Source: an uncultured Elioraea sp.
GTDB lineage: Bacteria > Pseudomonadota > Alphaproteobacteria > Acetobacterales > Acetobacteraceae
DNA: 33,196 nucleotides
Direction of reading: 5' to 3'
Assembly (NCBI GenBank): GCA_937927455.1
Contig: CALBEG010000284.1
Location: 1 to 33,196, forward strand
Numbering within the stretch: the stretch's first letter is position 1; every line of letters starts with the position of its first letter. This document shows, one piece after another, positions 13,834-21,946 of the stretch. The notes below the pieces were generated by a model. The model saw only the letters and a program-made list of their open reading frames with translations, did not search any database and was not told the DNA's origin. The translations under genes and the position numbers were made by a program.

Positions 13834-15228
13834 TCACGCCGGAACCCGATCCTGCGCGGTGGTGGCGTTCGGCGCGGCGGGAATTCTCAGCCCGGCAGCC
13901 GAGTACTCGCGTAGCTTGTTGCGCAGGGTGCGGATGGAGATGCCGAGCAGGGCGGCGGCATGGGTACGGTTGCCGAGGCAGTGCGTGAGCGTTTCGAGAA
14001 TCAGGTCGCGCTCGACGTCGGCGACGGTCCGGCCGACCAGCCCATTCGTTGCGGCAGGGGACGGAACCGCGCTGGAGCCGCTGCCCCCGAGCGCTGCTGG
14101 AGTGCGGAGGGGCGGGCACGCTTCTGCTTCGGCCGCCGGCAGTTCGATCGCATCGACGTCGATGACCTCGCCCGCCGCGAGCAGCACGGCGCGATGGATG
14201 GTGTTCTCGAGCTCACGCACGTTGCCGCGCCACGGCTGTGCCTCGAGCAGGCGCTTTGCCGCCTCGGTGAGCGGCCGAGCGGAAATGCCATTGACGTCCG
14301 CGTACCGACGCGCAAACATTTCCGCAAGCGGAACAATATCGCGGGGCCGGTCGCGCAGCGGCGGCAGGGTCAGGGTGATGACATTGAGGCGGAAGTAGAG
14401 GTCTTCACGGAATGTGCCCTTCTTGACCTCGGCCTCGAGTGGGCGGTTCGTGGTGGCGAGGATCCGCACGTTCACCTTCACCGGTTCGGTGCCGCCGAGC
14501 CGGTCGATCTCGCGCTCCTGGATCGCGCGCAGGAGTTTCGCCTGCAGCCGTACATCCATCTCGCTGATCTCGTCGAGCAGGAGCGTGCCGCCGTCGGCGG
14601 CTTCGAAGCGGCCGATACGGCGCGCGATCGCGCCCGAAAAAGCGCCTTTCTCATGGCCGAACAGTTCGCTCTCGAGCAGATGTTCGGGGATGGCGGCGCA
14701 ATTGACGGCGATGAATGGTCCTGCGGCGCGACGCGAGCGCCGGTGGATATGTCGGGCGAGAACCTCTTTGCCGGTTCCGCTTTCGCCGCGGATTAGCACC
14801 GAGGCGTCGGACGCCGCGATTTGCTCGGCGCGCCTCAGCGTCGCCAGCATCGCCGGATCAACCGCGACCGGCGCCCGCCCGTCGCCGCCGAGGGTCTCGA
14901 GCAGGGCAGCGATCAGTTCGGCGTCTGGTGGCAGGGGGAGGTATTCGCGGGCGCCGGCCCTGATCGCTGCCGCCGCACGCACGGCGTCGGCGCGCGTGCC
15001 GCAAGCGATCACTGGAGCGGCGATCCGTTCCGCTGTCATCTGCGCGATCAGCTCCTCAATCGGCAGCTGCACGTCGCACAGCACGACATCGGCGCCGCGG
15101 CCGCTGCGAAGTTCCGTCAGCGCTGACACCACATCGTCGGCCTGGGCGATCTTCGCCCCGCGACCGATCGCAATCCGCGCCGCCTCGCCGAGTTCCGCCG
15201 CCATCGATCCGACGATCATCACGCGCAT
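13834..15228 (-). CDS. flbD: Sigma-54-dependent transcriptional regulator FlbD (degenerate receiver, AAA+, Fis-type HTH)
   Basis: [82 protein letters not shown]-terminal Fis HTH; placed after fliN as in the Caulobacter fliF-fliG-flbE-fliN-flbD order. Confidence 0.9.
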
Positions 15229-17364: not shown

Positions 17365-19026
17365 TCAGTTCTCCTGCGCCATCCAACTGCGCACCACGGC
17401 GACCGCCTCCTCGGGGTGCTTGTCGACGAGTTCGGTGATGCGGCGGATCGAGGAGGCGCGCAGTTTTCCCTCGATGTTGGCAACATCAATCATGTTCTCT
17501 GGTTCGGGCAGCGCCCCGAGGGCGTCCGGTTCGGACGAGATCTGTCCGGCTGCGCCTGCCGTTGTGGCGAGCGGCTGGCTGCCCGACGGACCGGGCAGGG
17601 CGGCCACACCTGAGACCGAGACGAGGCTGCCCGACGCATCGGCCCCCGCCCGTCCCAACCGTTCGATGGCACGGCCTGCGAGCGGCCGAGCGACCAGGAG
17701 AAGAGCGAGCAGCGCGACGACGCCGAACACGACCGTCTCCACCAGTCGGACGAGCTCCGCACGACCAATCGGAAGCCCGAACAGGCTTTCGTCTGCCATC
17801 GGTGTCGGGTCCGCATCGGCGAAGCGGAGATTGACCACCTCGATCCGATCGCCACGCGAATCGTCGAAGCCAACCGCGGAACGGACCAGGGCGGCAAGAC
17901 GATCAAGTTCCTCGGCCGTTCGCGGCCTTGGCTCTCCACCCGCCACGGGAGCGTGATCGACCAGCACGGCGATGGACAGGCGACGAACGGTCGGCGTGTC
18001 GCGCGTGATCTGGCGCAGCACGCGGCCGATCTCGTAGTTCGTCGTCTCCTCCGTCCGGCTCTCCTGCGATCCCGCCTGGGCCCCCTGCGGCTGCGCATTC
18101 GGCAGGTTGTTGCCGACGGTCACATTCTCCGCCCGATCGACGCTCCGGCTCTCTTCCGTCACGCTGTGCACGGACCGCGCGACCTGCTGATCGGGGTCGA
18201 AGCTCTCGCGACTTTCGCTGACGCGGTCGAAATCCATCTCCACCGTGGCCTCGACCCGCACGCGGCCAACCCCGACCGTGCGCTCGAGCATCTCCTCGAC
18301 GGCGCGGGCGAGCCGCATCTCGTGCGCACGGCGCAACTCCTCGGCGTTGAGCGCGAGACCCAGCCCGCCCACCGCCTGGCCGGAGCGGGCGAGGAGCGAG
18401 CCGCGATTGTCGATCACCGAAATGTTCTGCGGTTTGAGGCCCGGAACGGCGGCAGCCACCAGATGAACGATCGCTTGCACCTGTTCGCGGTCGAGGCGCT
18501 GCGCCCCGCTCATCGTCAGCACGATCGAGGCTTGCGCCTCGGCCTCCCGCCGGGAGAAGGGATCGCGCCGCGGCAGGACCAGATGCACGCGCGCGCCGCG
18601 CACACCAGCCAGCGAACGGATGGTTCGCGCCAACTCACCCTCGAGCGCGCGCAGGCGATTCATCTCCTGCTGGAACGACGAGGCGGTGAGACCATCTGCA
18701 CGGTCGAAAATCTCGTAGCCAACGGAGCCGCCTGACGGCAGGCCCTCGGCGGCCAGCGAGAGGCGAAGCCGGGGCACCTGCTCGGTCGGAACGAGGATCT
18801 GCGTCCCGTTTGCGCCAAGGCGGTAGGGCACGCGCTGCCGTTCAAGCGCCTGGACGATTTGTGCCGCGTCGCGTTGATCGAGGTCGCTGTACAACAAGGC
18901 CATCGGCGGTTCGCTGGCGCGGACGGCAAGGAAGAGAATGACCCCGAGTACCGCCGCCCCGACCGCGCCGAGCACAGCGAGCCGCACCGGCCCCAAACTC
19001 CTCAGCCCGACAAGCAGACCGTTCAC
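17365..19026 (-). CDS. fliF: Flagellar M-ring protein FliF
   Basis: PMALLYSDLDQRDAAQIVQALERQRVPYRLGANGTQILVPTEQVPRLRLSLAAEGLPSGGSVGYEIFDRADGLTASSFQQEMNRLRALEGELARTIRSL. Confidence 0.97.
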   Translation of the reverse strand: MNGLLVGLRSLGPVRLAVLGAVGAAVLGVILFLAVRASEPPMALLYSDLDQRDAAQIVQALERQRVPYRLGANGTQILVPTEQVPRLRLSLAAEGLPSGGSVGYEIFDRADGLTASSFQQEMNRLRALEGELARTIRSLAGVRGARVHLVLPRRDPFSRREAEAQASIVLTMSGAQRLDREQVQAIVHLVAAAVPGLKPQNISVIDNRGSLLARSGQAVGGLGLALNAEELRRAHEMRLARAVEEMLERTVGVGRVRVEATVEMDFDRVSESRESFDPDQQVARSVHSVTEESRSVDRAENVTVGNNLPNAQPQGAQAGSQESRTEETTNYEIGRVLRQITRDTPTVRRLSIAVLVDHAPVAGGEPRPRTAEELDRLAALVRSAVGFDDSRGDRIEVVNLRFADADPTPMADESLFGLPIGRAELVRLVETVVFGVVALLALLLVARPLAGRAIERLGRAGADASGSLVSVSGVAALPGPSGSQPLATTAGAAGQISSEPDALGALPEPENMIDVANIEGKLRASSIRRITELVDKHPEEAVAVVRSWMAQEN

Positions 19027-19125
19027 CGAGTATCACTCCCTCGTGCACCGCCGCGGTCTGGCCGGACACGCGCCCGGCGCCATCACGCCCAAGCGTGGAG
19101 GAAATGCGTTGCGACAGGGTTAACG

Positions 19126-19140
19126 CGGCAAAACTTGCCG
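19126..19140. promoter_or_regulatory. Palindromic ftr-like (putative FlbD-binding) site upstream of fliF
   Basis: CGGCAA AAC TTGCCG in the flgD-fliF intergenic region; same motif as 21392-21429. Confidence 0.55.
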
Positions 19141-19176
19141 GGCGGAAAAACCTGCCCGGCCCCGTGACCGGGGACC

Positions 19177-19842
19177 TCAGCGGTCGGGCGAGACAGAGCG
19201 GATGGCAGAACTGTCAATCGCAAGCCCTCCGATGGCGAGCTTGAGCCCGCCCTCGGTTCGCTCCGCCCCAGTGATCCGGCCGATCACCGTGGTTGGAACC
19301 GCCTCCACGCTTGAGCCCCGCTGGGCCTCGACCGAAACCCTATAAACCCCGTCGGGCAGTCTGCGGCCAAACGCGTCTCGGCCGTCCCAGGCGAACTCGT
19401 GCCGGCCTGCCCGTGTCTGCCCCGGCGACTGGGCGATGATCCGACCCCCAGAGTCGCGGATCGTCACTGTGGTCGCGGTCGCATCCGCGCGCAGCATGTA
19501 GGCGCCGCGGGCCGCGCCGTCCTGCAGCACGATCGCTCCGGCCTCCGCCTCCACCGTGCGCCCGATCAAAGGGGTGAGCGCGGTGAGCTGGCTGGTCTCC
19601 TGCAGCTTGATCAGGCGCTCGAGGCTTTGATTGGTGGCGAGCTGCTGTTCGACCTGGGCGAACATGACGAGCTGCTGAGTGAACTGGTTGGTATCCAGCG
19701 GCGCTGTCGGGTCCTGGTTACGCAACTGGGTGGTGAGAAGCTTGAGGAAATCTTGGAAGTTGGAGGCGATCTGCCGGCGTGAGGCGAGTGCGGTCTGCTG
19801 CCGTTCCGTCGGGTTGAGGGTGGTGGTGACCTGGGTGGTCAT
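19177..19842 (-). CDS. flgD: Flagellar hook assembly scaffold FlgD
   Basis: NFQDFLKLLTTQLRNQDPTAPLDTNQFTQQLVMFAQVEQQLATNQSLERLIKLQ...FAWDGRDAFGRRLPDGVYRVSVEA; start at MTTQVTTTLNP. Confidence 0.95.
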   Translation of the reverse strand: MTTQVTTTLNPTERQQTALASRRQIASNFQDFLKLLTTQLRNQDPTAPLDTNQFTQQLVMFAQVEQQLATNQSLERLIKLQETSQLTALTPLIGRTVEAEAGAIVLQDGAARGAYMLRADATATTVTIRDSGGRIIAQSPGQTRAGRHEFAWDGRDAFGRRLPDGVYRVSVEAQRGSSVEAVPTTVIGRITGAERTEGGLKLAIGGLAIDSSAIRSVSPDR

Positions 19843-19858: not shown

Positions 19859-21298
19859 TCAGACAGCGATGTCGAGGAGGGCAGTGGGCGAAGACCTCGG
19901 CGCTGGTGCCGGCGTGGCGCGTTCGGGCTCAGCGGTGCGGGGGCCGCGCCCATCGCCGCGCCCGCCCTGCGCACGGCCGCCGGGCTCGCCGAAGGCGAAG
20001 GAGAGGCTGCGACCCTCAGAACCCACCCCGGCTTGCGCCAGCGCGCGGTCGAGCAGGGCGTGGTCGCGCTGCAGGAGCTGCAGGGTCTCCGCCCGCTCGG
20101 CGACGACCGCGATGGCGAGGCGGCCCTCGCTCATCCTCTCCACCGCGACCTCGATCCGCCCAAGCTCCTGCGGCTCCAGCAAAAGCGTGAGACGCACGGG
20201 CCCCTCCTGCGGCGAGACGGCGAGCGTGATCAGCACCGGCGCGAGCTGCCGGACCACCGGAATGAACGCCCGGGCGGGCGCACCCCGCAAAGGGACGGCA
20301 GGCGGATGCGGCCCCGAAGCAGCGGAAATCCCCGCCGAGGCAGTCGGGCCGGGGACAAAGAGCACGGGAGCCTCGACGGAGGGTCGCGAAGGGGCGTCCA
20401 GGCGGAGTTCGGCGGGCAACGAGATCGACGTTCGAACCAAATCGGGCTCGGTCGGAAGTATCCCATCACTCCCATGCGGTGCGACGGGCGCGGACGCGGA
20501 ACGGGGGACAGCCGAATCTGCCTGAGGCTCCGGATCGTCGCTGAGGGGCGGCGCGCTCCCCTCTGATCGGTGCGGGAGGCGTTCGGTGATCTGTTCGGCG
20601 CGGGGTGGCAGGTCGACCCTACGCCTCACAACGGGCTGCGACAGCGCCGCTTCGCCGTCGGTGGGTCCCGCCGCCTTGCCGACAGCGGCCGGCGCTGTGC
20701 CGCGCAAGCCCGCACGGCCGGTTTCCGGATCTGCTGCTGCGGCCTCGTCGATGCTCTGGATCGCGAGCGTCGAAACCGCCCCGGGCGAACGCACGGCCGG
20801 CGGAGCAGCGGTGCCTTCCGGCGAAGAGGGTGAAGCGACCATCGGCGCTGCAGCTAGCGTCACCGTAACGTCGGTATCGCGCGTCGTCGGGGGCGATCCC
20901 TTGCCATGCTGCGGCGCCAGCGAGGGCGGTTGCGTTGTTTCTGCCGACACGTCGATCGGCGTGACCTCCTCCGTCGCGGGACCCGACGGGACGGCGTCGG
21001 CAGCGAGAGGCGGATCGATCACCGCCGGGGCGGCATGCGCTGGCGCCGCAGTGTCGCTTGGCGTGTCTTCCAGGCTGGGCTCGACCGCCGGCGTGGCGGA
21101 CACTGGACCAGGCGTCTCCTCTCTGGTCGGCTCGACCGCAGGTGTGGCGGAGACTGGAGCGCGGGTCGGGTCCGCCGTCAGGGCGGCCACGAGCAGAGTG
21201 AGGAAGTCCGACCCGGCCGCAGGGAGGGAGTCCGCGCAAGCCGGACAGGCCGGTCGGGCGGGTGCGGCAATCGCGACGGCATCGACGGTTGGTGGCAT
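19859..21298 (-). CDS. fliK: Flagellar hook-length control protein FliK
   Basis: Low-complexity Pro/Ala/Thr-rich N-terminus and C-terminal Flg_hook-like domain EGPVRLTLLLEPQELGRIEVAVERMSEGRLAIAVVAERAETLQLLQRDHALLDRALAQAGV; directly upstream of flgD. Confidence 0.85.
   Translation of the reverse strand: MPPTVDAVAIAAPARPACPACADSLPAAGSDFLTLLVAALTADPTRAPVSATPAVEPTREETPGPVSATPAVEPSLEDTPSDTAAPAHAAPAVIDPPLAADAVPSGPATEEVTPIDVSAETTQPPSLAPQHGKGSPPTTRDTDVTVTLAAAPMVASPSSPEGTAAPPAVRSPGAVSTLAIQSIDEAAAADPETGRAGLRGTAPAAVGKAAGPTDGEAALSQPVVRRRVDLPPRAEQITERLPHRSEGSAPPLSDDPEPQADSAVPRSASAPVAPHGSDGILPTEPDLVRTSISLPAELRLDAPSRPSVEAPVLFVPGPTASAGISAASGPHPPAVPLRGAPARAFIPVVRQLAPVLITLAVSPQEGPVRLTLLLEPQELGRIEVAVERMSEGRLAIAVVAERAETLQLLQRDHALLDRALAQAGVGSEGRSLSFAFGEPGGRAQGGRGDGRGPRTAEPERATPAPAPRSSPTALLDIAV
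21060..21161 (-). repeat. Two adjacent diverged 51-bp direct repeats inside fliK
   Basis: 21060-21110 and 21111-21161 encode PVSATPAVEPTREETPG / (V)SATPAVEPSLEDTPSD; in frame (17 codons). Confidence 0.8.
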
Positions 21299-21313
21299 GG
21301 CGGTGCCCTAGGC

Positions 21314-21328
21314 GCAACTTCCGGGCCA
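21314..21328 (-). promoter_or_regulatory. Putative sigma-54 (-24/-12) promoter for fliK(-flgD)
   Basis: Minus strand TGGCCCGGAAGTTGC: GG-N10-GC with TTGC at -12; predicted +1 about 21302, only ~4 nt before the fliK ATG (21298). Confidence 0.55.
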
Positions 21329-21391
21329 CGCCGCGGATGGCACGATCGGGCAGGCAAAGCGGGGCCTTACGGCGCTCGATTGGAGGGCTGG

Positions 21392-21406
21392 CGGCAAGAC
21401 TTGCCG
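21392..21406. promoter_or_regulatory. Palindromic ftr-like (putative FlbD-binding) site 1
   Basis: CGGCAA GAC TTGCCG, perfect 6-bp arms; in fliK/flbT divergent intergenic region. Confidence 0.6.
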
Positions 21407-21414
21407 TGACGGTG

Positions 21415-21429
21415 CGGCAGGACTTGCCG
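21415..21429. promoter_or_regulatory. Palindromic ftr-like (putative FlbD-binding) site 2
   Basis: CGGCAG GAC TTGCCG, one arm mismatch; 23 bp from site 1; a weaker TTGCCG half-site follows at 21445-21450. Confidence 0.6.
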
Positions 21430-21505
21430 CGGCCGCAGCGGATGTTGCCGCCTGTGCGCTCCCCGCCAGTGCCTCAGCGGGCCGCCTGCCGCCCTCCGCC
21501 GCGAC

Positions 21506-21522
21506 CGGCACGGTGGTTGCTT
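21506..21522 (+). promoter_or_regulatory. Putative sigma-54 (-24/-12) promoter for flbT
   Basis: CGGCACGGTGGTTGCTT: close match to consensus TGGCACG-N4-TTGCW with GG-N10-GC; predicted +1 about 21532, 58 nt before flbT ATG. Confidence 0.75.
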
Positions 21523-21589
21523 TCGTCCCTCGGCAGACACGCATTGGTTGTGTCGATGGACAAGAATGCACCGAGGATGGAAGGGCAGG

Positions 21590-21946
21590 ATGCCGCTGAA
21601 GGTGGTTCTGCGTCCGGGTGAAACGATGGTGGTGAACGGTGCGGTGATTGGCGCCGGCGACCGCACCGCGATCATCTTCCTGCACAACCGGGCACAGTTC
21701 CTGCGCGGGCGCGACATGCTGCGCGCCGAGGATGTGGATGGGCCGGAGCGCGCGCTCTATTTCGCGATCCAGTGTCGATATCTCGGCACGGAGACGGACC
21801 AGGACGTCGAGGCCGCGTTGGCCGCAGCCCGCGCGGCGAGGCCAGAGGCGGCGGCGGTGCTCGATCGCGTGCGCGCCTTGGTGACCGAGGGTCGGGCCTA
21901 TGAAGCACTCCGGCTGTGCGCTGGGCTCTTCCGGGGGAAGGCCTGA
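21590..21946 (+). CDS. flbT: Flagellar biosynthesis repressor FlbT (flagellin mRNA regulator)
   Basis: MPLKVVLRPGETMVVNGAVIGAGDRTAIIFLHNRAQFLRGRDMLRAEDVDGPERALYFAIQCRYLGTE, the FlbT family signature. Confidence 0.93.
   Translation: MPLKVVLRPGETMVVNGAVIGAGDRTAIIFLHNRAQFLRGRDMLRAEDVDGPERALYFAIQCRYLGTETDQDVEAALAAARAARPEAAAVLDRVRALVTEGRAYEALRLCAGLFRGKA

Follow-up and report, generated by a model that had tools for sequence, protein, structure and literature searches.

Predicted bidirectional FlbD/sigma-54 control of fliK-flgD and flbT in Elioraea, with related sites across the Acetobacteraceae

The window, that is, the whole stretch of 33,196 bp analyzed in this work, is one contig of the genome assembly of an uncultured Elioraea strain (G000; 87.9% complete, 289 contigs). 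Its minus strand carries fliK-flgD and, further to the left, fliF-fliG-fliH-fliN-flbD-flhA-flhF-flhG, with flbD located inside the operon fliF-fliG-fliH-fliN-flbD-flhA, while flbT is read from the plus strand (Table 1). The start of flbT (ATG at 21590, with GGAAGGGCAGG ahead of it) was set from the sequence and from the boundary of the Pfam match. The predicted start codon of fliK (21298) and the predicted start of its transcript (21302) are separated by only some 4 nt, so this gene would be nearly leaderless or else begins further in.

Table 1. Genes and sequence elements of the fliF-flbT part of the window
Feature	Sequence	Position	Strand	Remarks
flbD, presumed activator/repressor		13834-15228	minus	best NCBIfam match NF050807, 703 bits
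fliF, MS ring, first gene of the class II operon		17365-19026	minus	Pfam PF01514/PF08345
CtrA-like site (TTAA-N7-GCAA), fliF promoter	GTTAACCCTGTCGCAAC	19108-19124	minus	found in 7/7 Elioraea
fliF box, third full palindrome	CGGCAAAACTTGCCG	19126-19140		upstream of fliF, ftr4-like; matrix rank 1 in window
Weak second fliF box	CGGAAAAACCTGCCC	19143-19157		17 bp from the first; matrix score 12.0, rank 5 in window
flgD, hook cap		19177-19842	minus	Pfam PF03963/PF13860
fliK, hook-length control, first gene of fliK-flgD		19859-21298	minus	Pfam PF02120
fliK-flgD -24/-12 (sigma-54) promoter	TGGCCCGGAAGTTGC	21328-21314	minus	1 mismatch
Box A	CGGCAAGACTTGCCG	21392-21406, centre 21399		14/15 positions self-complementary; matrix rank 2 in window
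Box B	CGGCAGGACTTGCCG	21415-21429, centre 21422		matrix rank 3 in window
Box C, weak	CAGCGGATGTTGCCG	21436-21450, centre 21443		low matrix score, 2.3
flbT -24/-12 (sigma-54) promoter	CGGCACGGTGGTTGC / CGGCACGGTGGTTGCTT	21506-21522	plus	1 mismatch
flbT		21590-21946	plus	Pfam PF07378

The interval between fliK and flbT is bounded by two outward-facing -24/-12 sequences, which were scored by counting mismatches to the sigma-54 pattern TGGCACG-N4-TTGC. Between them lie palindromes with the consensus CGGCA-N5-TGCCG (looser form GGCA-N5-TGCC), referred to below as boxes. Boxes A and B, their centres, the 23 bp between these centres and both promoter elements had been described in the first-pass annotation and were recovered exactly, in position as well as in strand. 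Its description of a two-palindrome array was right for both members and wrong in their number, since a weak third box (C), centred 21 bp from box B, and the full palindrome before fliF had been missed. Box A lies 71 bp from the fliK -24 element and 107 bp from that of flbT, and box B 94 and 84 bp, respectively, A being closer to fliK and B to flbT.

To score the boxes we used a weight matrix trained solely on fliF-upstream sites from genera other than Elioraea. Boxes A and B and the fliF box occupied ranks 1–3 among the approximately 33,000 positions of the window. The looser form was seen 6 times versus 1.25 expected, a number reached in none of 100 shuffles. At up to one mismatch the window contains three promoters, two of which flank boxes A and B; taken alone, the promoters are not significant, because Markov shuffles (mean 0.6) give up to 4.

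Comparison of seven Elioraea genomes, E. thermophila and E. tepidiphila among them, revealed the fliK promoter with no more than one mismatch in all seven and a recognizable flbT promoter, likewise in all seven (the copy in G006 has two mismatches). At least one box is present between the two promoters in each genome, the boxes of G005 being degenerate; G002, G003 and G006 have a single good box there. Despite its low score, box C is the second or third best matrix site in all seven intervals, 42–44 bp from box A. Thus, both the divergent sigma-54 promoters and the boxes between them, for which an alignment of relatives had been suggested, are kept within the genus.

The same association was found throughout the family. 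In 80 Acetobacteraceae loci, sigma-54-like promoters with no more than one mismatch numbered 87, and 56 of them had a box 30–150 bp upstream (1.6 expected; control patterns 0–4), as did 10/10 perfect ones. A search of 120 family genomes located the combined box-promoter pattern 75 times and its reversed control once; these loci and genomes are related by descent and their counts do not represent independent events. At 28 of the 75 places the first downstream gene was examined, and in 23 it was FlgE/F-like (12), FlgI (six) or FliK (five). In the source genome, boxes of the same kind also occur at fliF, flgE, flgI/fliX and a gene for a GGDEF protein.

Could the palindromes and the promoter-like words simply reflect chance in DNA of high GC content? 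The bare CGGCA-N5-TGCCG pattern is indeed not clearly more common genome-wide than its reversed controls (21 vs 13 in G000, 33 vs 35 in G003), but chance is excluded by the placement statistics and the control palindromes, and we give this explanation practically no weight. The signal of the box is its placement at promoters and not its genome-wide count. A scan for co-occurrence with flagellar promoters had been proposed in the first-pass annotation, and the box does track them although the bare pattern is not enriched; we found neither scatter without flagellar linkage nor loss of conservation, the computable outcomes that it had named as contrary to its reading. Its recurrence across the family marks the arrangement as a genuine control element that has been well conserved.

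Two groups of candidates were set aside. Palindromes on contigs C193, C282, C18 and C124 were taken as chance occurrences, because they apparently lie inside reading frames and have no sigma-54-like promoter (up to two mismatches) within 300 bp. The CGGCAAGCCCTGCCG sites (G004:C6 and G005:C2) were rejected as flgE promoters, as they showed neither a sigma-54-like promoter nor a flgE match.

The box before fliF is organized in a different way: it adjoins a CtrA-like site and has no sigma-54 promoter. The looser form GGCA-N5-TGCC is present ahead of fliF in 61 of the 80 Acetobacteraceae loci, at 25-fold the density seen in the rest of those loci, and most control patterns show no rise there. In many of these loci the box is likewise adjoined by a CtrA-like TTAA-N7-GYAA. 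The same neighborhood, a CtrA-like site and no sigma-54 promoter, characterizes Caulobacter ftr4, and by this analogy FlbD may shut off fliF through the fliF box. It should be mentioned that a variant with a shorter spacer, GGCA-N3-TGCC, is enriched 9-fold ahead of fliF too (16 of the loci L075–L154).

Measured from the middle of the box to the -24 element, the distances fall into groups at about 38, 48–49, 58–59 and 69–70 bp, that is, one helical turn apart. The periodicity persists in weaker form when repeated values are removed (jitter test, p about 0.008, with related genomes that are not independent). This phasing bears on whether the palindromes act as RNA hairpins, either terminators or leader structures. 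They are perfect or near-perfect G+C-rich inverted repeats, as hairpins would be, but they are situated upstream of both predicted start sites, lack a T run, keep a helical spacing to the promoters and recur at fliF beside the CtrA-like site. Hairpins are therefore a very improbable explanation.

Divergent sigma-54 pairs have a box between them in 26 of 27 cases (none with any of seven control patterns). In eight loci a box occupies the exact midpoint, at 48/48 or 48/49 bp from the two -24 elements, and most of these loci have no second box. Provided that both promoters depend on a box, a lone midway one must act on both. These observations support the proposal of the first-pass annotation that one enhancer acts in both directions. 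The boxes of the window could instead be independent neighboring enhancers, A for fliK and B/C for flbT. Two or three of them are present, each strong one closer to its own gene, and in Rhodobacter sphaeroides divergent flagellar promoters can have a CtrA site in common or one each (PMC6180460). Against this stand the single good box of G002, G003 and G006 and the midway loci, and we regard separate enhancers as unlikely. Sharing is the likeliest reading for the window with its three boxes, and one array would then serve both promoters in vivo.

The divergent partner of fliK differs between lineages. In most Acetobacteraceae it is the hook gene flgE, whereas G001, G002, G003, G006 and E. rosea have the arrangement fliK, box(es), flbT, box, flgE, flgK. 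Within the clade of the window flgE is located elsewhere: a flgE-like gene on G000:C80 and G005:C80 has an upstream box and CGGCACAGCATTTGCT, a weaker sequence resembling a promoter. The contig with the flgE-like gene in the source genome also carries a second, diverged flbT-like gene (about 37–39% identity; G000:C80:184-534, L053). The suggested coupling of FliK/FlgD to FlbT thus applies to Elioraea and not to the rest of the family, where the partner of fliK is flgE.

The presumed regulator is encoded in the window, as first annotated. FlbD scores 703 bits against NF050807, for which the equivalog cutoff is 750; the cutoff was missed in all 120 family genomes searched. FlbD reads GAFSGA in place of the GAFTGA that is usual in sigma-54 activators. 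The same GAFSGA was found in 58 of 60 motif matches among the Acetobacteraceae loci read. In the high-scoring FlbD loci drawn from the class as a whole, the motif is GAFTGA or GSFTGA. RpoN (PF00309 match) and FliX (PF10768 match) are also encoded in the source genome. At L003 (G000:C47:8614) fliX and flgI point away from each other; the intervening DNA contains box CGGCAAAATTTGCCG and, toward flgI, a sigma-54-like promoter with one mismatch.

Sites with box and promoter were found in 49 of 73 FlbD-positive versus 6 of 47 FlbD-negative family genomes (Fisher p = 2.5e-9); conversely, FlbD is present in 49 of 55 pattern-positive versus 24 of 65 pattern-negative genomes. Several of the six matches in FlbD-negative genomes resemble chance coding matches, and G010 is a draft. 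It is conceivable that the boxes are bound by another regulator, such as a different NtrC-family or a Fis-type protein. Outside the family, G045 and G091 have a box and promoter before a GGDEF gene and no FlbD-like match, and in these two genomes the box may be recognized by a different activator. However, the association with FlbD across the Acetobacteraceae is strong, and the targets, class III flagellar genes and fliF, are those of Caulobacter FlbD (PMC3930126, PMC3096577), which makes a different regulator improbable for the family. This association points to FlbD as the very probable binder of the boxes, in agreement with their initial assignment as ftr-type sites, for which binding is predicted.

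We propose that segment 21302–21532 controls transcription in both directions through sigma-54. RNA polymerase with sigma-54 would occupy the two outward-facing promoters, that of fliK-flgD on the left and that of flbT on the right, and FlbD would bind the predicted boxes between them (two strong and one weak, spaced by 21–23 bp, close to two turns of the helix), its AAA+ ring opening either polymerase via a short DNA loop. FlbD would be active only after early basal body assembly, through FliX. Such an assembly checkpoint is transferred here from Caulobacter. In that organism FlbD acts at ftr sites to switch on class III promoters and at ftr4 to repress fliF, and FliX governs FlbD in step with the state of assembly (PMC3930126, PMC3096577, PMC7064773). 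Based on the observed sequences, their conservation, box-promoter co-occurrence, helical spacing, flagellar targets and FlbD co-occurrence, we assign a probability of roughly 0.88 to a bidirectional FlbD/sigma-54 enhancer for fliK-flgD and flbT with a FliX checkpoint and fliF shut-off.

As in Caulobacter crescentus, FlbD, FliX and RpoN are encoded and box-bearing sigma-54 promoters precede fliK, flgE/F and flgI. The likeness to ftr concerns placement and targets. Unlike in the Caulobacter system, flbT of the window is under a sigma-54-like promoter. Caulobacter sigma-54 enhancers are IHF-assisted, whereas a consensus scan of 21301–21540 revealed no IHF site (WATCARNNNNTTR). Caulobacter flbG is the hook operon, fliK and flgD included, and flaN is flgK. 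The divergent partner is flaN in Caulobacter, flgE in most Acetobacteraceae and flbT in Elioraea. The divergent flaN/flbG region of Caulobacter, as it is cited in PMC3096577 (Mullin and Newton 1993), is likewise a pair of divergent flagellar units under sigma-54 and ftr elements, ftr2 and ftr3. To judge from the title of that work, ftr2 and ftr3 are located downstream of a promoter there and not halfway between two. Since divergent ftr control is thus already known in Caulobacter, the element of the window is, by analogy, a further case of the FlbD/ftr system.

A single activator site for back-to-back flagellar promoters has also been demonstrated by mutagenesis in R. sphaeroides, where one CtrA site is common to the divergent fliF2 and fliL2 promoters (PMC6180460). 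That case differs in that CtrA binds near -35 of promoters of a non-sigma-54 type, with no looping from an enhancer (PMC6180460). No published FlbD work in Acetobacteraceae was found in the literature searched. The present data would extend the Caulobacter FlbD/ftr circuit to this family, and the explicit consensus CGGCA-N5-TGCCG, combined with the spacing rule, makes the regulon predictable from sequence.

A wider proposal is put forward tentatively, and we consider it rather doubtful as a whole: that a strictly phased and often exactly centred box, 48 bp from each -24 element and elsewhere offset by a helical turn, lets one complex serve two sigma-54 polymerases at short range and without IHF, that Elioraea extended this control to flbT, and that it reaches diguanylate cyclases across the Alphaproteobacteria. 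The midpoint geometry is a compact setting in which to ask whether two sigma-54 promoters can be fired simultaneously by a single enhancer complex. As to diguanylate cyclases, four of 11 proteins encoded downstream of box-plus-promoter sites outside the family are GGDEF proteins (L248, L249, L252, L253), which suggests that c-di-GMP synthesis may be linked to the flagellar programme through boxes at GGDEF genes. Two of the genomes concerned have no FlbD-like match. If true, control of diguanylate cyclases by FlbD boxes throughout the Alphaproteobacteria would tie c-di-GMP synthesis to flagellar assembly.

In the source genome a box and a perfect sigma-54-like promoter are located ahead of a small GGDEF (diguanylate cyclase) gene (L025/L226, G000:C235:2921-3001). 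Finally, at four sites in other alphaproteobacterial families (L241, L244, L245 and L254) the downstream proteins, for which no fitting Pfam family was tallied, share a segment resembling NPLQHxPxVxxxYRxxTGD.
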